From Candidatus Chlorohelix allophototropha (GTDB lineage Bacteria; Chloroflexota; Chloroflexia; Chloroheliales; Chloroheliaceae), in NCBI RefSeq assembly GCF_030389965.1, contig NZ_CP128400.1, positions 1,488,001-1,552,000 on the forward strand: 64,000 nt of DNA, given 5' to 3'. Shown piece after piece: positions 47,201-59,152 of the stretch. The notes under the pieces are model-generated. The model was given only the letters and a program-made list of their open reading frames with translations, was not told where the DNA came from and searched no databases. A program made the translations under genes and the position numbers. How positions within the stretch are numbered: position 1 is the first letter of the stretch; each line of letters begins with the position of its first letter.

Positions 47201-47486
47201 TATATTCCTTACCTATTACGATAGTGATGGGCGCGTGGCATGGGTCGATGATCAATATGTAGAGAGCGCCGTTCGTCCGCAAAGAACCCAACCTTTCAGC
47301 ATCGTGCTTTCAAGACCAACCGAAACCTCAGTTGTACTTGATAAAGGCAACACCTATTCAAATATACTATCTAGCCAGTTCAACCTGTCGCCTCAGCAAA
47401 GTGATCGAATACCATTGCCTAAAGACTTTGGGTATTCTTCTGTCAGGGTAAATGTACATTATTATGCGGCGGGGGCAACAGAATGA
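44226..47486 (+). CDS. Large membrane protein: PTPS-related/GT-C-like with NTF2-like and FxLYD-type domains
   Basis: The product has 1086 residues. The N-terminal half (about 1-560) is multi-pass, with YDAYIHIFFADHYARAWFDHWE, RWYTGFTMTSYPPGSQQS and GCTAGHHVTTLFG, like the 6-pyruvoyl-tetrahydropterin-synthase-related membrane family and other GT-C proteins. Another membrane segment lies near 680 (SLVLLIIIIVGLGGTVFTAL). About 695-820 is an NTF2-like external domain (VVESYYDALDFRRFSEAYSYLDP; VLVKRSGKWYIVPDQ). Two FxLYD-like beta domains follow (VLQIMSARFVQGRTGYAVVGELMNT; VQDMKIEYGADGLAQLTGQLINYG). It overlaps the next gene by 4 bases (ATGA), so translation is coupled. A role in surface polymer assembly is inferred. 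Confidence 0.82.
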   Translation: MRSFLSRQNSSLLLALALAFVYHGGLLLTGTFKRTYDAYIHIFFADHYARAWFDHWEYRWYTGFTMTSYPPGSQQSIALISPVVGLLNGFIIVQLFAVLLVVLGVYRFSRIWVTEEAAGFAALLAVFSSSITETVHVFGQLPTMFSLGFLLNALPFVRYWLDTGKRRYLLMGWVVLAGCTAGHHVTTLFGAVFFVGPVLLAGIVDKFRQPLPDEPTAHPSQVAGRKIFPLVIRRLRRIVPVTFRAGIFGIGLVVVLLGVVLPYWLWSKDDPIVQISIPHASRDSFIQNTNAGLVFWLIPYGLTLLALPYIFYKGLNTRAWPLTLSLMMAVLLGTGGTTPLPKALLGGAYYILTLDRFTFWATILLLPLLGEFVVSITKRGLANYLRNQFGVLTWKIVLFVLVVFYLALSGITANFTQFRKFQPAAIDMQPIVTFLEKDQHSRWRYLPLGFGDQMAWLSAQTSATTVDGNYHSARRLPELTTTSIERLEGAKFRGIPGLTSLQQFLAVPEKYNLKFVLSNDQYYDPLLYFSGWHRLQRLENGIMVWEREDIPPLPEVLPRKEIPIYQRIMWGTIPMAAIFSAIFTLSLRLWGHRLLWLFEFIGLVKLTTKIRIPGMGLFPRFWRAIDRKLLRWSTVKETESDNGARWQFWSDWMMVVKNLKPAPPSKQVIRSLVLLIIIIVGLGGTVFTALRPAGPLQVVESYYDALDFRRFSEAYSYLDPTVRPSYDQYLLELSVTNGLVASYGKLDSVRTSLLSSEPERVVAQAKTVWLTSLDQYPTVQQHVLVKRSGKWYIVPDQVDLTIPPDQFFNKAQVNWYSQGRRRVTTQTTSFSDVLDRPVLQIMSARFVQGRTGYAVVGELMNTDVNPADVTLTAVLFDKDNKEVTEYNAQEGIVHKLLPKEITPFRVDFAGVSGQTLGISNPEDPPNIVPSATPNLKDQVTAFEVYAKAVVTGRDLLRDVGVQDMKIEYGADGLAQLTGQLINYGTQEATIPHIFLTYYDSDGRVAWVDDQYVESAVRPQRTQPFSIVLSRPTETSVVLDKGNTYSNILSSQFNLSPQQSDRIPLPKDFGYSSVRVNVHYYAAGATE

Positions 47487-48727
47487 GGCAACTCCGATAC
47501 TTGCTCTCCGGCTTAATACTCGCGCTGGTGTTAACCGCTTGTGGCGCGACACCCCCCCTCCCCTCATTCACAGGAGGGGAATTGACCATTTCTGCGCCTG
47601 AAAGCGCTGATGTCGGAACGCCTGTAAGCCTTACTGTCAAAGCTTCACAGGCTTCTGATGGTGTTAATGTTACTCTGATTGCATACGGTAGCGCCGGACC
47701 TCGTATTTATCGCGGCGCATTTAACAAGGGCGAAGCCTTCTTTACCTTGCCCCAAACTGATACGCAGCAATCTGGCTTAGTAACCTTGATTGCAAAAGCC
47801 GGGCAGGTGCAAACTGAAAAAAAGTTATTGCTAAAACCGGGAGCGCCGATTGAACCGCTCCAACCTTTAGTGGGTGCAAGAGCGGTAATCGCCGATACAC
47901 AACATTGGAGTATGGTCGTAATTATTCCATTTGACCGTTTCGGTAATCCCGTTGCAGAGGGTACTCCGGTAACAATGAGAGCTAAAAGACCGGACGATCG
48001 CCTTGTAGATCAAGAGTTTAAAGTCACCAATTTGCTCACTTGGTGGCGAATTTATAGCGGCACTAAGGCCGGGCGCACTATAATCTCGGCTACTACCAAT
48101 GGCGCATTTGGTTCTGAAGGTATTTTACTCGAAGAACCGGGTTTGCCCTTACCATTTAGTGTCAGTATCGAGCCACTGAATGTGGTAGCAGACGGTCACC
48201 AATTAGCCACTATAAGCACCTCTATACTCCGAGATCAATTTGCTAACAAGGTTGAAGATGGTACGTTGGTTACCTTTACAGTAGATTTACCTGATGGGGC
48301 GAGCCGGGTCATTCCAGCTTATACAATTGACGGAATAGCGCAAGCGCCTTTGCAAGCGCCACGACAACCCGGTCAAATTAAAATCAAAGGTTCGGTTTTA
48401 AGTATCGAAAGCTCGGTTTTGACCGTTAATTTACTGCCCGGACCTGCGGTAGGAATTTTCCCGGTGGTTGCTACTAGAGCCGATAGTGGGAAAGCTGTAA
48501 TTATTGAGGCCGGTCCAATATTAGGCATGCAAGAACAGTTTGTACCGGACGGCACTCCGGTGGTATTTACGGTAAGCGACAAAAGTGGGCAGAAACAAAC
48601 CTTTAATGCCTTTTCCAATCAAGGTCGTGCTAGTGTCGAAGTGAGAATAGCCGGAATGCGACAAGGAAATTATCTAGTTGAAGTGATGGTGGGTTCAGGT
48701 CAAGGCTTTACCAGTTTCAGCCTCTAG
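47483..48727 (+). CDS. Lipoprotein with repeated Ig-like domains
   Basis: The product has 414 residues. The lipobox LTAC at about residue 20 makes it a lipoprotein. After a short Pro-rich stretch come three or four Ig-like domains of the invasin/bacterial Ig type: LTISAPESADVGTPVSLTVKA, then VVIIPFDRFGNPVAEGTPVTMRAK, then VSIEPLNVVADGHQLATISTSILRDQFANKVEDGTLVTF, and a final GTPVVFTVSDKSGQ. It probably presents or binds something at the surface. It is the middle gene of the cassette, coupled by a 4-base overlap to the upstream membrane protein and ending 8 bases before the GH5-like gene. Ligand unknown. Confidence 0.85.
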   Translation: MRQLRYLLSGLILALVLTACGATPPLPSFTGGELTISAPESADVGTPVSLTVKASQASDGVNVTLIAYGSAGPRIYRGAFNKGEAFFTLPQTDTQQSGLVTLIAKAGQVQTEKKLLLKPGAPIEPLQPLVGARAVIADTQHWSMVVIIPFDRFGNPVAEGTPVTMRAKRPDDRLVDQEFKVTNLLTWWRIYSGTKAGRTIISATTNGAFGSEGILLEEPGLPLPFSVSIEPLNVVADGHQLATISTSILRDQFANKVEDGTLVTFTVDLPDGASRVIPAYTIDGIAQAPLQAPRQPGQIKIKGSVLSIESSVLTVNLLPGPAVGIFPVVATRADSGKAVIIEAGPILGMQEQFVPDGTPVVFTVSDKSGQKQTFNAFSNQGRASVEVRIAGMRQGNYLVEVMVGSGQGFTSFSL

Positions 48728-48735
48728 TCAAAAGT

Positions 48736-50517
48736 ATGTCAAAAGTATGGTTAAAAAGGGGAATATGGCTTGCTTTGATGCTGATCTCACTGGTTGGCAT
48801 ATTCCTGATTCTAAAGGGAGCCGGGGCTATTATTACTTATTTCCAAGAAGGGGCTGACCCCGGTTCTGCGCTTAATATTGTGCCAAACAAGCCCCCTGAT
48901 TACCAAACTAAAGTGGTATGGCTACCTGATGACCCCGATACGGGGCGGGTAATGGAGCCTTTTACACGCGACCAAATCGAGGCAGCCTATATCAGGGCGT
49001 GGCTTCAATGGAATTTGTCTCAAGAAAAAGGTTCAGCTTATGGGCTTAAGACTTATTTTACCGGACCAACGCTTGATGCTATAAGCAATGCGATACAGCA
49101 ATCGGTTTCAAATGGCTTTAAGATTACGCAAACTACCACTGAGCATCACCCACAGCTGCATTTCTATTCTGCCGATGGCTCGATTGTTTCCTTTACCGAA
49201 GAGGGTGCACGAGTCGAGCAGATTATTCGAGATAAAAGCGGACAGGTGATTTTAGCGGATGAACGTAACTCTCGTTACGATGTGGTAATGCTGCTTGAAG
49301 ATGGCAACTGGCGGATTCGGCATATGGTTCGCATTAATGAAACGAACCCAGCCGATAATAAGTTTGTTACTGTTCCAAAAACCGGCTTTGTGCGTGTGGA
49401 TGGTGCTACCCTCACCTTGGATGGACAACCATTTCAAGCTGCCGGGGTAAATTACTATCCACAAGCAACTCCCTGGGACAAGTTTTGGCTCTCCTACAAG
49501 CCAACTATTATTGATGAAGACTTAAAACGGGTGAAAGATTTAGGGCTTAATACCCTCCGTATTTTTGTACCTTTTACTCAGTTTGGTGGTACTACCCCAA
49601 CCGAAGCCTATCTTAAACTTCTGGATGATTTTCTCAAACGCGCCGATCAGCAAGGCTTAAAAGTTATTGTTACCCTTTTTGACTTCAGAACCGACTATAA
49701 CCCTTTGTTGTGGGCTGATGCAGACCGCCATTTGGAAACTATACTCACCCGCTTTAAAGATTATGCCTCTGTATTGGCGTGGGATTTGAAAAATGAACCT
49801 GATTTGGATTATAAAACGGGTGGGCGCGAAACGGTGGATTTATGGTTACGTCATGTTGCGATTACAGCGCGAGAGTTTGACCCGAACCATTTAATTACTA
49901 TCGGCTGGTCAACTTCGAGCGTCGCTGCTACCGCCTCAAATCTGGTTGATTTTGTATCTTTCCACTACTATACTCCTGCCGTGAACTTGCCCGCCGAGTA
50001 TAACCGCTTGAAAACGGCAACTGCCGATAAGGCGATAATGGTTACCGAATTTGGTTTGCCGACATGGAATACCTTCTTCCCTAACGGTCACTCCGAGCCG
50101 GAACAGGCTGAATACTATGCCGACATCATTAAGTTTCTACGCGCATCCGGTAGCGCTGGTTATATGGCATGGACGCTTTATGATTTTAGTTATATTCCCG
50201 GTTCGGTAGCGGGTGCCTTGCCGTGGCAAAATGGCCCACAAAAAGAGCTTGGAATATTGAAAGCAGATGGAAAGCCTAAACCTGCTGCCGCATTACTAGC
50301 GCCCGGTTCATCGCTCGATGTTACCCGTGTACCGAGTTGGGCGCAGTTTCTAAAGCCTTTCTGGTTAGGCTCTCTGGTAATGCTATTGCTGTTTATTTAT
50401 TTGGTATGGCGTTTTCGCTTGGTTGAGCGTTCGATTGGTATGTTTAAACGCTTTAGAATGGCGTTATTTAATGTACCGAGCCGCTTCCTGCGACTCTTTC
50501 GGCGCAAGCGGCGTTAA
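48736..50517 (+). CDS. Membrane-anchored GH5-like glycoside hydrolase with NTF2-like domain
   Basis: The product has 593 residues with a membrane helix near 10-32 and another near 545-565 (FWLGSLVMLLLFIYLVWRF). About 70-200 is an NTF2-like domain (YIRAWLQWNLSQEKGSAYGLKTYFTGPT; VMLLEDGNWRIRHMVRIN). About 210-520 is a GH5/clan A-like barrel: LDGQPFQAAGVNYYPQATPWDKFW, VKDLGLNTLRIFVPF, WDLKNEPDLDYKTG (predicted acid/base Glu), HYYTPA, and ITEFGLPTW-type IMVTEFGLPTW (predicted nucleophile Glu). It may trim or rearrange a glycan produced by the first gene product. The pairing of this domain with the NTF2-like region also seen in the first gene is notable. An intrinsic terminator follows. Confidence 0.87.
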   Translation: MSKVWLKRGIWLALMLISLVGIFLILKGAGAIITYFQEGADPGSALNIVPNKPPDYQTKVVWLPDDPDTGRVMEPFTRDQIEAAYIRAWLQWNLSQEKGSAYGLKTYFTGPTLDAISNAIQQSVSNGFKITQTTTEHHPQLHFYSADGSIVSFTEEGARVEQIIRDKSGQVILADERNSRYDVVMLLEDGNWRIRHMVRINETNPADNKFVTVPKTGFVRVDGATLTLDGQPFQAAGVNYYPQATPWDKFWLSYKPTIIDEDLKRVKDLGLNTLRIFVPFTQFGGTTPTEAYLKLLDDFLKRADQQGLKVIVTLFDFRTDYNPLLWADADRHLETILTRFKDYASVLAWDLKNEPDLDYKTGGRETVDLWLRHVAITAREFDPNHLITIGWSTSSVAATASNLVDFVSFHYYTPAVNLPAEYNRLKTATADKAIMVTEFGLPTWNTFFPNGHSEPEQAEYYADIIKFLRASGSAGYMAWTLYDFSYIPGSVAGALPWQNGPQKELGILKADGKPKPAAALLAPGSSLDVTRVPSWAQFLKPFWLGSLVMLLLFIYLVWRFRLVERSIGMFKRFRMALFNVPSRFLRLFRRKRR

Positions 50518-52979: not shown

Positions 52980-55544
52980 ATGGGATTATGGTATTCTCTT
53001 AGAAATCAGGTGCAAGCTTTTACTAATACAGGAGAGGGAAAATTGAACGGACATCAGGCGCTAGGTTATCTTTCTCGCAACGATAAATGGTTTCTGGGTG
53101 GCGGTAAAATGGTCATCTGGGCGCCTGAATTTCCCTTGTGGCTGGATAAACCCGGTTATTGGGATCATGCTTGTTTTCTTGATTACCGAGTTGGTCCAAT
53201 TTTTACTCTGGCAATTCTGGATGAAAAGCGACGCGAAATAGAGCCAACTTTTGTTGAGCGATTCTGGCAACCTGATCACAGTAGTCATCTATATCGAGTC
53301 AAAAGCCGTGACTTGATAATTACCGAACGGCGCGCGTTGCTACCGTGGGATGTGTTAGTCAGTACCTTTGAATTTGCCAATTCGCTCAAGCAGGAACAAA
53401 ATTTTGACCTAGTATTATGGAGTGCTCAAGATAGCGAAGGTTCGGTGCGCGGCGGTAGCATCAGCGAGATAGAGAGCTTGCGCACCCGTAAAGAAGATGG
53501 ATCGATTGTCTGGCAACGTGGCGTACGTGATTCCCAGATTCCTACAAACGCTGCTGACCCTGAAGCAGGCGTTATGATGCGTTACAATGTGGCATTGGGT
53601 GGGAGCATTCGCGCCGAAAGTTACAGTGTAAAAGTAAGTGATCGCCAACCCAATTACCCGCGTTTCAAGTATTCTCCCTTCTATGAAAAGCTGTCAGAAT
53701 ACGGAAATCTAGGAAATGAAGAACCCTCTGTATGGATTCGCAACCCTAACGGACTAGTTTATCTTGGTTTGCACTACAAAATCAGCTTACCGCCCGGCGG
53801 GAAAGTTACTTTCAGCGCATATGCCAGCATAGCCGCTACCGAAGAAACCGCCCTGACTGGATTAAACCTCGCGCGTCGCTCCGATAGCCTTATGCGTGAC
53901 AAACAACCCGCTGCTGCTGCGCCCGTTCCCGACCCCTACAATCTTGGAGCTGCTGCAAATAATCTGGCAGAACCGCGCTATGCCGAACCGATACAAGGAC
54001 GCGCCGCCGAGCGAGAGCGCCGTCCTACCTTCCCTGCCAAAAAGCATTGGAGCGAGTATTTTGAAAATCTGCCGGATTTCACTTGCTCCGATCCCTATCT
54101 ACAGAAATATTACTGGTATCGCTACTACGGTTTGAAGCTTAATACCATTGTTGCAGGTTCGGACGAGCGTTTGGGTTTGCCTTACCCTTGTGTTTTCGAG
54201 GGGATTAATCTTGGCTGGTTCCGGCAGCATATAACCTATAGCGCACAATGCCATATGCTAGAAGCGCGTTGGATGCACGACCCGGCTCTGGCGCAAGGCT
54301 CATTGCTCAATTTTATTCAAAACCAGCAACCGGATGGCGCATTCCCCGGTGTAATTAAGAATATATATCGGGGTAATCGCGAACTAACCTCCAATGTAGC
54401 CTTCTATCATGCTAACTGGGGAATGGGCGTGCGCGAACTTTATCGAGTGCATCCCGACCGTACTTTTCTTGAGAAAGTGTTCCAGCCGCTTTCTCGCTAT
54501 GCCGAATATTTCGATAATGAGCGCGACAAAGAGCAAAGCGGTCTCTATGATGTAATTAACCATTGGGAGACCGGGCAAGAATTTATGAATCGTTATCAGC
54601 AGGTTGACCCGCAAAGCGATTCGGGGGGTAACTTGCGCTTGAAGGGATTGGATGCCACCGTTTACATTTACCAGTTGCAGGATACACTGGCTTGGATGGC
54701 AGATGAACTGGGGAATCCGTACGATGCGGAACGTTGGCGCATCGCCGCTGAAAAAACTCGGCGCAGTATTCTGAGTATGATGTGGGATTTAGGTCAAGAG
54801 TTTTTCTATGATGTTAATCCCAGTACGATGCATCGAATTACTGCTAAAGCAGCGGTTGGGTTTTATCCCTTTATGGCAGGCTTGGGGGGCAAAGAGCATC
54901 TTGGCGCGTTTTACAAGCACCTATTCAATGAAAAAGAATTCTGGACACCCTTCCCCGCCCCTTCAAGCAGTCGCGATGACGAATATTTCAGCCCTGATGG
55001 AGAATGGAAGGAACGTCGCTTGGTTTGCCCTTGGAACGGGCGCACTTGGCTAATGACTAACAGCCATGTGGCAGAGAGTTTGTGTCGCGCTTCGCAAGAG
55101 CTTGACCCCAATCTTCAGCCTAAAGCGGTAGAGTTCCTGAACAAATTTATCCGCATGCTCTTTCTTGATGGCGATGTGGAGCGTCCAAGTTCCTATGAGT
55201 ATTACAACCCTCTTACCGGACAAGCCCCTTTCTTTCGCGGAACTGAAGATTATATGCATAGTTGGATTGCCGACTTAATTATCAAATATGTAGCAGGCGT
55301 GCAACCGCAAGATAAAGGACGTGTCCTGATTCGCCCGTTACCTTTTAACCTAGACTACTTTACGCTTGATCGGATTAAAATTGCCGACCATTGGTTGAAA
55401 ATAACTTGGCGCAAAGAACCAAATATGCCCGAAAGCCCGCTACGAAAAGCAAGCGTATCTGCTCCGGTTGGGTTGGCGGTATGGGTAGATGGGGTGCTGG
55501 TAGAACAACGACCAGCTTTACAGCTAATTGAGGTTCAACTCTAG
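52980..55544 (+). CDS. GH63/MGH1-like glycoside hydrolase
   Basis: Up to 854 residues; the ATG at 52980 lacks a ribosome site, while a TTG at 53043 is preceded by AGGAGAGGGAAAA and is a good alternative start. The N-terminal 350 residues are beta-rich (ALGYLSRNDKWFLGGGKMVIWAPEFPLW; LHYKISLPPGGKVTF). The C-terminal part is an (alpha/alpha)6 barrel: EGINLGWFRQHITYSAQCHMLEARWM, HANWGMGVREL, DVINHWETGQEFMNRY, CPWNGRTWLMTNSHVAESL and SYEYYNPLTG. This resembles glucosidase/mannosylglycerate-hydrolase type enzymes. No signal peptide, so probably cytosolic. Substrate could be a compatible solute or an alpha-glucan; not decidable. The next gene begins 9 bases later. Confidence 0.85.
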   Translation: MGLWYSLRNQVQAFTNTGEGKLNGHQALGYLSRNDKWFLGGGKMVIWAPEFPLWLDKPGYWDHACFLDYRVGPIFTLAILDEKRREIEPTFVERFWQPDHSSHLYRVKSRDLIITERRALLPWDVLVSTFEFANSLKQEQNFDLVLWSAQDSEGSVRGGSISEIESLRTRKEDGSIVWQRGVRDSQIPTNAADPEAGVMMRYNVALGGSIRAESYSVKVSDRQPNYPRFKYSPFYEKLSEYGNLGNEEPSVWIRNPNGLVYLGLHYKISLPPGGKVTFSAYASIAATEETALTGLNLARRSDSLMRDKQPAAAAPVPDPYNLGAAANNLAEPRYAEPIQGRAAERERRPTFPAKKHWSEYFENLPDFTCSDPYLQKYYWYRYYGLKLNTIVAGSDERLGLPYPCVFEGINLGWFRQHITYSAQCHMLEARWMHDPALAQGSLLNFIQNQQPDGAFPGVIKNIYRGNRELTSNVAFYHANWGMGVRELYRVHPDRTFLEKVFQPLSRYAEYFDNERDKEQSGLYDVINHWETGQEFMNRYQQVDPQSDSGGNLRLKGLDATVYIYQLQDTLAWMADELGNPYDAERWRIAAEKTRRSILSMMWDLGQEFFYDVNPSTMHRITAKAAVGFYPFMAGLGGKEHLGAFYKHLFNEKEFWTPFPAPSSSRDDEYFSPDGEWKERRLVCPWNGRTWLMTNSHVAESLCRASQELDPNLQPKAVEFLNKFIRMLFLDGDVERPSSYEYYNPLTGQAPFFRGTEDYMHSWIADLIIKYVAGVQPQDKGRVLIRPLPFNLDYFTLDRIKIADHWLKITWRKEPNMPESPLRKASVSAPVGLAVWVDGVLVEQRPALQLIEVQL

Positions 55545-55553
55545 GGAGTATGC

Positions 55554-57101
55554 ATGAAAAAGGATAAGCCCTCATTTAACTATAAAAAATATCTTGACGA
55601 GAATTACCTGCCACGTCAGCGCAAGAGGCTCATTAATACCTTTTCGATACTGACCTTAATCGGGAACGTTACATCGCAGGTGGTAGTCTTCATAAATAAT
55701 GCTGGCTCTATAAATTTAGGGCGCATTTCTGGCTCATTGGGAATAGTATTAGTCGCTATACTGGCTATTATCCTTACTTGGTACAACCGGGTTGAACTTG
55801 CCGGTATTTTTTATTGTACCTTTGGGCTTTTAAGTGTCACCTTTGCGGTTTATAATGGCGGGCTGAGTTCTAATGCACCGATGCTTTATTTTGTCATAAT
55901 TGTAGTGGCAGGGGCAATTATAAGTCCTATAGCTGTACTTATAGTAGGCGTTGTTTCCAGTCTCGCTTATCTGGTCGTTGCGCTATATTTGCTTAGCCAG
56001 ATTCAAAATCCAGCATCAACTTATGGTACAAATATTGCTTTAGTAAGCGCTATTCTAATAATTGCATCAGCAGTCTTATACATATTTAGTTTTGCCCTTG
56101 ACCGCATTGCTTCCAGCGCCCGGTATCAGGCTAACGAATTAAAAGATGTCAACGAACGTTTGCTGGAACAACGTGATCTAGAAATTGAGACCAGCCGCCA
56201 GATAAATGTCCTATCCGAAGCGCTTGCCGAACTTTTCAGGCGGCAGAACACAGCTACAGAGGAGCAAGTTTTATTGGTAAATGAAGTCGCCAGCACCTCC
56301 AATGAATTGGATGCAGCAGCGCGGCGCATTGCTAATAACGCCCTGAGTGTTTCGGTAATTGCAGAAAAAGCCTTAAAAAGCGCTCAAACAGGGCAAGAGG
56401 CAGCGCAGGATGGGGTTACTGCTATCGCTACTTTGCGTAATAACGTGGAAAATATAACCTATAGTGTGCGCTATTTAAATACTCAAATTGAGCGTATTGG
56501 CGAGGTTACGGATATTATCGGCGAGGTTGCAGATGAAACCAATCTCTTATCACTCAATGCCACCATTGAAGCGGCAGGTGCTGGTGAGTATGGCAAGCGT
56601 TTTGCGGCAGTTGCTGACGAAATACAAAGGTTGAGTCGGCGTACAACCACAGCCGTTGAACAAATTCAGGAAGTGGTCAACGAAATTATCCAAGCCAGTG
56701 AAAAATCCCTTCAAACTACAGAAGATGGTTTGCGTCAAGCACAACAGGGCGAATCGTTGGTTGTGCGCTTGATAGAAGCTAACAACGATATTATAACTAT
56801 CGTAAACCAGACTGCTGAATTGGCAACCAACATAGCCAGCAGCACTTATGAGCAACGAAACGCTAGCGGCGTGATTGTGGAAAGCGTGCAGCGAATCAGT
56901 CTGGCTTCAAAGGAACTGGCGGGTTTTACTATTGAGGTTTCGGAAGTCATTCATAAACTGGAAGGAAACGCCACGCTACTAATAAGTCAAGCATTACCTG
57001 AAAAAAAGCAAGCTAAGAATCAAGAAAAAATCCTATTTAGTGAGTTATTCCTTGACGACGCAGAGCTTGAAGAATTTGAGCAAGCGGGAGTTAGTTTTTA
57101 A
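55554..57101 (+). CDS. Methyl-accepting chemotaxis-like protein without periplasmic sensor or HAMP
   Basis: The product has 515 residues. Six membrane helices occupy about 29-185, with only short loops. A coiled coil (ELKDVNERLLEQRDLEIET) leads directly to a signalling domain with DIIGEVADETNLLSLNATIEAAGAGEYGKRFAAVADEIQRLS, the receptor hairpin tip. No HAMP domain and no external ligand domain are visible, and no che gene is nearby. It may sense a membrane property or a lipid/quinone. GGGAGTATGC precedes the ATG. It lies 9 bases after the glycosidase gene and its TAA overlaps the ATG of the next gene. Confidence 0.9.
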   Translation: MKKDKPSFNYKKYLDENYLPRQRKRLINTFSILTLIGNVTSQVVVFINNAGSINLGRISGSLGIVLVAILAIILTWYNRVELAGIFYCTFGLLSVTFAVYNGGLSSNAPMLYFVIIVVAGAIISPIAVLIVGVVSSLAYLVVALYLLSQIQNPASTYGTNIALVSAILIIASAVLYIFSFALDRIASSARYQANELKDVNERLLEQRDLEIETSRQINVLSEALAELFRRQNTATEEQVLLVNEVASTSNELDAAARRIANNALSVSVIAEKALKSAQTGQEAAQDGVTAIATLRNNVENITYSVRYLNTQIERIGEVTDIIGEVADETNLLSLNATIEAAGAGEYGKRFAAVADEIQRLSRRTTTAVEQIQEVVNEIIQASEKSLQTTEDGLRQAQQGESLVVRLIEANNDIITIVNQTAELATNIASSTYEQRNASGVIVESVQRISLASKELAGFTIEVSEVIHKLEGNATLLISQALPEKKQAKNQEKILFSELFLDDAELEEFEQAGVSF

Positions 57102-59152
57102 TGAAGGTTTTGTTGGTACAACTCCCTGTACCTAACAACCGCCTGAATAATTTGCCGCTTGCACTTGGCTACCTCAAAGCCAGCGCCGAATCTGCCGCTT
57201 TACCCAGCGTTCAAGTTCAAATTCTAAGGCGTGAGGCGCAGAACCTAGGCGGTGATGCTTACCTATTAGACGCTATTCTGTCGGAAGTGCCTGATTTAGT
57301 GGGTTTTTCGCTCTATTCTTGGAACTCCAGTCGAGTGCTTGAACTGGCGCGCCGTATAAAAGAAGTTTCGCCCGAAACCATGCTACTGGTGGGTGGTCCC
57401 GAAGTAAACCACGATAACCCCTTTATCCTAACCGAACCCTCCCTGGATTTTCTCATTTTCGGGGAAGGTGAAACCGCGTTTTCGCTACTACTGCGCCACT
57501 TCACCGAGCATTTACCCCTATCGCAAGTCAATGGATTGGGTTATCGGCATAATAGTATTTTGCATATCAACCCCGCCAGCCTCGCGACAGCAGATGTAAA
57601 CCTGATACCCTCAGCTTATCTGAGTGGCGCTTTAAGCAACCATCTAGATAATTTTATGTTTATCGAACTTAGCCGCTGGTGTCCTAGCAAATGCACTTTT
57701 TGTTATTACGGGCGACAGGATATACCGATTGGCGGTAAGCGTTATTTCGATATTGAACGAATCCGTAAAGAGCTTGAATATGGCATGGCACGGGGGGTAA
57801 ATTCGGTTCATTTCGTGGAGGCAAATTTTAATACGCTGCCCCACCTCAGCCAAATTTACCAGACCATTCAGGAAACGGGCGCAAATCGCCATATCCGCTT
57901 CTATGCCGAGATGCGCGGAGAAGCCATTGACGAGGCTGATGCCGATTTGCTGGCAAGTTGCAACTTTGGAGTGGTCGAAGTGGGGTTACAATCCGCCATA
58001 CCGGAAGTGCTGGCTAAGGTGCGCCGCAAGAACCATTTGCCGCGGTTGGTAGCGGGGGTACAGCATTTACGCCAGCGCGGTATTGAAGTGTTTCTAGATG
58101 CAATTTTAGGCTTGCCCGGTGACACTATTGATAGTTTTCACCGTACTATTGATTTTATCGAAGCAAATAGCCTTGCCCCTTACGATTTGTTCCACCTACA
58201 AATTCTGGGCGGAACACAGTTAAAAACCGAAGTAGCAGAGGGTTTGCATGGCATCGAATTTCAAGCCGCCCCACCCTATTTTGTGCTAAAAACCGCCGAA
58301 CTAAGTTTCGCACAACTTTGCGAACTGCGGCGGGAAACTTTATTGCGTAAAGGTGACGACCCTGACGACATACAGGGTTTGCCACCACCCAATCTGTTTG
58401 CGTTGTGTCGGGTTGAATCTGAGTTTGCTATTAATCCGGCTAACAGACCGCCTATCGAGCATCTAGAACTAGACTTGAGCCAACCTATGCCGGAAATTTC
58501 GCGCTTGCTGGCTAACGAAGTTACAATCCGGTTATTTAGCGGAGATATTGCGAAGGCGACACAAGCTTTAGCTCAACTATCAGCCCCAAATCCCACCACT
58601 ATCTGGCATATCTTCTTCGAATCGGCACAACCGCTGGCTGACGCAGAATTGCTAGATTTAAAACGCGCAATTCACCATAAGAGCGGTTACCTTGATAGGC
58701 TGGCAGTTTTTGCGTTGGGTCAACCCAACCCGGAAATGTTTTCCTCACATCCTTCGGTGCAATGCTATAATTTGGTGCGCTGGAAGGCGGATTTGGTTCC
58801 ATTAGCCGATAAAACTACAATTTGGATGATAGAATGGCGCGAAGATAAGACTGTATCAGAATGGCGTGAAAGTTTGCACAACACGCTTGAAACCAACGCG
58901 CAAGGTGTATTTATAGCAACAGACAGTGGGGTTTCCTATGAGAAAGTCAGAAGGGCGTTGGCTGAACAGGAAACAGATGGGAAAGTTATCTGGTGGAGCG
59001 ATCCCGGTATTGCTTCCGCCTTTGCCGGGGAGGAAACTATTGCTGCTTTTCCAACCTGCTATAGGCAAGGGCAGTTGCGTCAAGTGGATAAAGCCACCCT
59101 AGAAAGAGCATGCTTACGCTGGGAGCTTTCAAAACGGCGAGATGCGCGTTAG
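57101..59152 (+). CDS. B12-binding-domain radical SAM protein
   Basis: The product has 683 residues. Residues about 1-140 form a cobalamin-binding-like domain (KVLLVQLPVPNNRLNNLPLALGYLKA; DLVGFSLYSWN; LLVGGPEVNHDNPF), without the DxHxxG His motif. The radical SAM domain has Cys194, Cys198 and Cys201 in SRWCPSKCTFCYYG. It continues with HFVEANFNTLPHLSQIYQ, VEVGLQSAIPEVLAKVRRKN and FLDAILGLPGDTIDSFHRTIDF. About 400-683 is a C-terminal region I do not recognise. Such enzymes methylate, cyclise or rearrange lipids, chlorins, peptides or other substrates. Start overlaps the receptor stop by one base, so coexpression is likely. Substrate unknown. Confidence 0.9.
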   Translation: MKVLLVQLPVPNNRLNNLPLALGYLKASAESAALPSVQVQILRREAQNLGGDAYLLDAILSEVPDLVGFSLYSWNSSRVLELARRIKEVSPETMLLVGGPEVNHDNPFILTEPSLDFLIFGEGETAFSLLLRHFTEHLPLSQVNGLGYRHNSILHINPASLATADVNLIPSAYLSGALSNHLDNFMFIELSRWCPSKCTFCYYGRQDIPIGGKRYFDIERIRKELEYGMARGVNSVHFVEANFNTLPHLSQIYQTIQETGANRHIRFYAEMRGEAIDEADADLLASCNFGVVEVGLQSAIPEVLAKVRRKNHLPRLVAGVQHLRQRGIEVFLDAILGLPGDTIDSFHRTIDFIEANSLAPYDLFHLQILGGTQLKTEVAEGLHGIEFQAAPPYFVLKTAELSFAQLCELRRETLLRKGDDPDDIQGLPPPNLFALCRVESEFAINPANRPPIEHLELDLSQPMPEISRLLANEVTIRLFSGDIAKATQALAQLSAPNPTTIWHIFFESAQPLADAELLDLKRAIHHKSGYLDRLAVFALGQPNPEMFSSHPSVQCYNLVRWKADLVPLADKTTIWMIEWREDKTVSEWRESLHNTLETNAQGVFIATDSGVSYEKVRRALAEQETDGKVIWWSDPGIASAFAGEETIAAFPTCYRQGQLRQVDKATLERACLRWELSKRRDAR

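Follow-up and report, generated by a model that had tools for sequence, protein, structure and literature searches.

A glycosidase, a six-helix chemoreceptor and a TokK/CysS-like cobalamin radical SAM protein are encoded in a maintained operon-like unit in the family of Candidatus Chlorohelix allophototropha

The radical SAM enzymes TokK and CysS, the closest solved relatives of one of the proteins described here, act on pantetheine-bound small molecules (PMC12846815; structure title 7kdy). In TokK the residue W76, like W75 in CysS, shields the lower face of the cobalt (PMC12846815). In the GH63/GH37 superfamily of glycosidases, the catalytic base is a Glu located late in the barrel and the acid of GH63 and GH37 lies in the A' region (PMC7263609), and Asp182 and Glu419 have been described for the glucosylglycerate hydrolase (PMC6608630). 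HtrVIII of Halobacterium salinarum, an oxygen sensor proposed to bind heme, combines six N-terminal membrane segments with a methyl-accepting chemotaxis protein (MCP) signalling domain and, by this description, is like the receptor reported below (PMC13401364).

Genes for a glycosidase, a chemoreceptor and a radical SAM protein were found side by side in the green filamentous phototroph Ca. Chlorohelix allophototropha L227-S17, the genome of which consists of two chromosomes of 2.96 and 2.45 Mb and replicons of 375, 241 and 55 kb (PMC10972752). The window, i.e. the whole stretch of DNA that was analysed, was 64,000 nucleotides long and spanned positions 1488001-1552000 of contig 2. Three open reading frames were located on its + strand, as were all the features given below for these genes, at positions 52980-55544, 55554-57101 and 57101-59152, respectively. 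The glycosidase and receptor frames were separated by 9 bases, and the receptor and radical SAM frames overlapped by 1 base (TAATG), so the coordinates confirmed the spacing given in the original prediction. Promoter and terminator scans of the unit yielded nothing above background, and a search for a B12 riboswitch found none. Upstream, positions 47483-50517 of the window code for two proteins spaced by 8 bases: the first has a weak invasin-like domain, and the second is of GH5 type and carries hydrophobic segments at each end.

The start of the glycosidase gene was probably misplaced at the ATG at 52980. A TTG at 53043 is the more likely start, because a Shine-Dalgarno sequence AGGAG (53030..53034) is located 8 bases upstream of it and the starts of all four orthologues fall near this point. 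The in-frame extension from the ATG (52980..53042), absent from the four orthologues, is probably untranslated, and the predicted cytosolic protein (53043..55544) would comprise 833 amino acids. The residue numbers used here are counted from the ATG at 52980. The protein matched PF22422, the MGH1-like glycosidase family (5.8e-48, 164.7 bits against a cut-off of 27 bits), and profile searches gave matches to GH142 BT_1020 (5mqr) and GH63 YgjK. The enzyme is thus an (alpha/alpha)6-barrel glycosidase of GH63/GH37/GH142 type. It had been described as GH63-like, and these matches uphold that label at the superfamily level only; no CAZy family is claimed. An (alpha/alpha)6 barrel, a candidate base Glu and the MGH1-like Pfam domain are shared with BT_1020, YgjK and the mannosyl- and glucosylglycerate hydrolases. 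The alignment with BT_1020 covers both the barrel and a C-terminal stretch. The protein scored far under the NCBIfam equivalog cut-offs.

Based on motifs, E534 in WETGQE (54579-54581) was assigned as the candidate acid and E740 in YEYYNPLTG (55197-55199) as the candidate base. Both residues were invariant in five glycosidase orthologues. Among more distant Chloroflexota relatives, ETGQE was found in three and ESGCD in one outlier. The characterised GH63 enzymes use Asp as the acid (PMC7263609, PMC6608630), whereas the presumed acid position is occupied here by Glu, with the candidate base Glu present. Judged from the sequence, glycosidase activity is plausible with Glu replacing Asp at the presumed acid position.

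The third gene (57101..59152) encodes a B12-binding radical SAM protein of 683 amino acids. A cobalamin-binding domain (PF02310, 57155..57490, 1e-15) and a radical SAM core (PF04055, 57662..58159, 1.2e-24) were identified by Pfam and alignment. In a profile search the closest solved structures were TokK (1e-50) and CysS (1e-38), and the same two proteins were again at the top of a fold search. The latter was performed with a low-confidence AlphaFold model. The models were built from 4 sequences for the radical SAM protein and from 3 for the receptor, with extra rows from loci L058-L060 only, and had mean pLDDT values of 52 and 56, so that fold searches on them count merely as support. The cluster cysteines C194, C198 and C201 (CxxxCxxC) and W74 (57320-57322) were invariant in 11 aligned homologues, and W74 aligned with W76 of TokK. 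Since TokK and CysS are the closest structures, the cysteines are invariant and the cobalt-shielding Trp is kept, the protein is most likely a C-methylase. Of the curated families, KedN5 (NF033712) matched the first 404 residues best; membership was rejected, as 138.8 bits were obtained against a family cut-off of 700 bits. Methylation of BChl or of another pigment was tentatively set aside as a function, the neighbourhoods of the homologues giving no hint of a pigment context.

The likeness to TokK and CysS extends over about 370 residues, in which the B12-binding domain and radical SAM core align and both the Trp below the cobalt and the CxxxCxxC motif are found. However, the identity is about 20%, the C-terminal domain has no sequence match to theirs, and no genes of a pantetheine or carrier-protein pathway were noticed near the radical SAM gene. 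This C-terminal domain (residues 450-683, 58448..59149) was delimited by searches, model and alignment. Its approximately 230 residues had no sequence match in the PDB at E 10. The window copy had no Pfam match, with a short DUF4080 start below the threshold, and the fold search gave no named family. The cobalamin radical SAM domains and the unknown C-terminus of the original prediction were thus corroborated. An alternating beta/alpha structure was predicted by the low-confidence model. The domain changes fast (30-37% identity), and a GYLDR motif at residues 529-533 is conserved.

The receptor (55554..57101) contains PF00015 only (100.1 bits). Six membrane helices were recognised in residues 25-190 (55626..56123) by hydropathy and in the AlphaFold model, and neither a HAMP nor an external domain was found, just as had been predicted. 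The MCP signalling hairpin (residues 276-449, 56379..56900), delimited by Pfam and alignment, aligned without gaps to the sequence of the T. maritima receptor 2ch7, the fold of which was matched as well. In the tip of the hairpin, EAAGAGEYGKRF, residue 342 is Gly and residue 349 is Arg, at positions equivalent to R388 and G395 of Tsr. The canonical Arg and Gly are thus swapped. The comparison of the tip (window 56577-56600) with L002, L062 and L107-L136 showed that the swap is common to nearly all the Chloroflexia six-helix relatives examined; the canonical pair is a conserved feature of MCPs and no strict requirement of the family. Gly (or Ala/Ser) replaces the tip Arg and Arg replaces the Gly in these receptors (EAAGAxE.G[RK]RF), and the arginine has apparently shifted from one helix of the hairpin to the opposite one.

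A homologous receptor was encoded directly upstream of a CheA gene in five other Chloroflexia genomes (L137-L141). In four of them (L137, L138, L140 and L141) it was part of an operon that included CheW, CheB and CheR in the order CheW-MCP-CheA-CheY-CheB-CheR; the che genes were checked by Pfam for L137 and L138 and assigned by similarity for the others. Between genomes, the membrane domains of the five CheA-linked receptors were 12-30% identical and the signalling tips about 80-90% identical. The window receptor resembles them in its six helices, the lack of HAMP and the hairpin with the swapped tip, but it lies outside a che operon, in an operon with enzymes, and belongs to a different clade. 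The receptors of the triplet formed one separate clade (support 100/100) in a tree whose remaining deep branches were weak or long. As HAMP-less six-helix relatives occur inside che operons across Chloroflexia, the window receptor represents a chemoreceptor relocated beside two enzymes.

A search for che genes, suggested along with the original prediction, revealed two CheA loci in the genome of Ca. Chlorohelix allophototropha (C2:562k and C2:2424k), one of them with CheW, CheR, CheB and CheY, and eight places encoding an MCP. Signalling partners for the receptor therefore exist. The canonical tip was present in one of the eight MCPs. Motility of the organism is not mentioned in PMC10972752, and a PilT search gave no match at its cut-off.

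The conservation of the unit was analysed in Ca. Chloroheliaceae L227-5C (L058), in the Chloroflexi metagenome-assembled genomes 54-19 (L059) and RYN_336 (L060), which represent another genus (g2) of the same family, and in a fourth relative, G004. The order and strand of the three genes were identical in 54-19 and RYN_336, with short junctions. In L227-5C the glycosidase and radical SAM genes overlapped by 4 bases with no receptor between them. Among the three relatives in which the junctions could be read, two thus kept all three genes and all kept the enzyme pair. In G004 the glycosidase gene and the C-terminal part of the radical SAM gene each ran to a contig end, on two different contigs, which fits a triplet and is no proof of it. 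Loss of linkage in relatives had been named as the outcome that would speak against the grouping; it was looked for and did not come true. Downstream of the triplet, both g2 genomes have a response regulator gene (L060 10317-11042, LuxR type; L059 10695-11402), which is absent from this place in the window.

It might be argued that the three genes are adjacent through shared ancestry alone and form no functional unit, and the arrangement is indeed known from only one family in the searches of related genomes. However, in those relatives that possess orthologues of the DUF3105 and SDR genes flanking the unit, these were located on other contigs. The three genes remained together in spite of the reshuffling of their flanks, which indicates a maintained unit, and the junctions of 9, 1 and 4 bases further oppose mere shared ancestry, making it very improbable. 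We concluded that this mixture of a glycosidase, a receptor and a radical SAM protein is a real, maintained, operon-like unit, the linkage of which survives across genera.

Outside the family, homologues of the radical SAM protein (34-45% identity) were found in a number of other families of Chloroflexia, unaccompanied by this glycosidase, and in at least five other genera they adjoined neither it nor a receptor. Glycosidase homologues were scattered in Chloroflexota (5 of 400 genomes of the phylum besides the source genome), with no radical SAM gene nearby. The homologues being unlinked elsewhere, a pathway shared by both enzymes is not universal. The neighbours of these homologues gave no hint of a pathway.

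The rates of change differed between the domains of the unit. Between the window and its relatives, the glycosidase barrel was 72-75% identical, the B12 and radical SAM domains 63-73% and the signalling tip of the receptor 71-72%. The membrane domain was the fastest-changing part of the unit, being only 24-27% identical between the window receptor and the two other triplet receptors. The original prediction was that the receptor may monitor a product of the radical SAM enzyme in the membrane; in one form of this idea, it would bind a methylated lipid made there by the enzyme. The conserved linkage and a six-helix domain without an external sensor agree with such sensing. However, if the membrane domain bound what the neighbouring enzyme makes, one would expect it to be under a constraint no weaker than that on an anchor and to co-occur with the enzyme, and here the domain is the least conserved part. 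In addition, L227-5C has both enzymes with no receptor between them, homologous six-helix receptors were found in genomes lacking close methylase relatives, and there was no sign of lipids as substrates of the methylase, the most similar enzymes of solved structure using pantetheine-bound small molecules (PMC12846815). These observations lowered the claim of product sensing, and the sensing of a methylated lipid is now considered quite unlikely. The fast change of the membrane domain could also reflect a diversification of ligands.

The absence of the receptor between the enzymes of L227-5C means that it is dispensable to both of them. The receptor may therefore be a passenger: the functional pair would consist of the glycosidase and the radical SAM protein, and a duplicate of a receptor gene would have landed between their genes, where it is tolerated or merely co-regulated. 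The intact pair in L227-5C agrees with this, as do unlinked six-helix paralogues of the same family that adjoin unrelated genes, dnaJ-like and others. The family has further six-helix paralogues: a tandem pair in L227-5C (L142 10264-13467) and, in both RYN_336 and 54-19, a gene flanked by a TPR gene and a dnaJ-like gene (L143 8386-10047; L144 8410-10008). On the other hand, the receptor was kept in place in two genera and its tip is strongly conserved, hence it is under selection.

Gene order, conservation, domain content and the conservation of key catalytic residues characterise the unit, and the three genes probably share a physiological context, comprising an enzyme pair and a co-expressed, relocated che receptor. 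We tentatively proposed a family-specific operon in which a glycosidase and a TokK/CysS-like methylase that share a substrate are coupled with a six-helix receptor of the che family, and the passenger explanation is about equally likely. The unlinked homologues outside the family, the enzyme pair without a receptor in L227-5C, the promoter and terminator scans at background and the lack of a mention of motility and of a PilT match count against the proposal. According to it, both enzymes would be cytosolic, the (alpha/alpha)6-barrel glycosidase being of inverting type and the cobalamin radical SAM methylase TokK/CysS-like, and they would act on one metabolite or polymer, e.g. a glycosylated or methylated component of the cell or its envelope. 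The receptor, which would derive from the Chloroflexia che-operon receptor family, may be co-expressed in order to tune the Che array while the enzyme pathway is on. It probably signals via its conserved cytoplasmic hairpin, and its membrane domain would serve as an anchor or a general sensor of the membrane state and not as a pocket for a single lipid. That a co-expressed receptor also senses is our inference. That the operon is biosynthetic or involved in salvage, and that its che-array receptor reports the flux or product of the glycosidase and B12 methylase pathway, appears unlikely. To our knowledge, no coupling of metabolism to chemosensory signalling through a radical SAM product is known.

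Through this unit, chemosensory signalling is linked in a conserved and testable way to two uncharacterised enzymes of the cultivated Chloroflexota phototroph that has a type I reaction centre. It further indicates that the six-helix receptor of the Chloroflexia che operon was duplicated and moved into new contexts. The product of the methylase, if found, could point to a class of substrates that is new for the cobalamin radical SAM enzymes.
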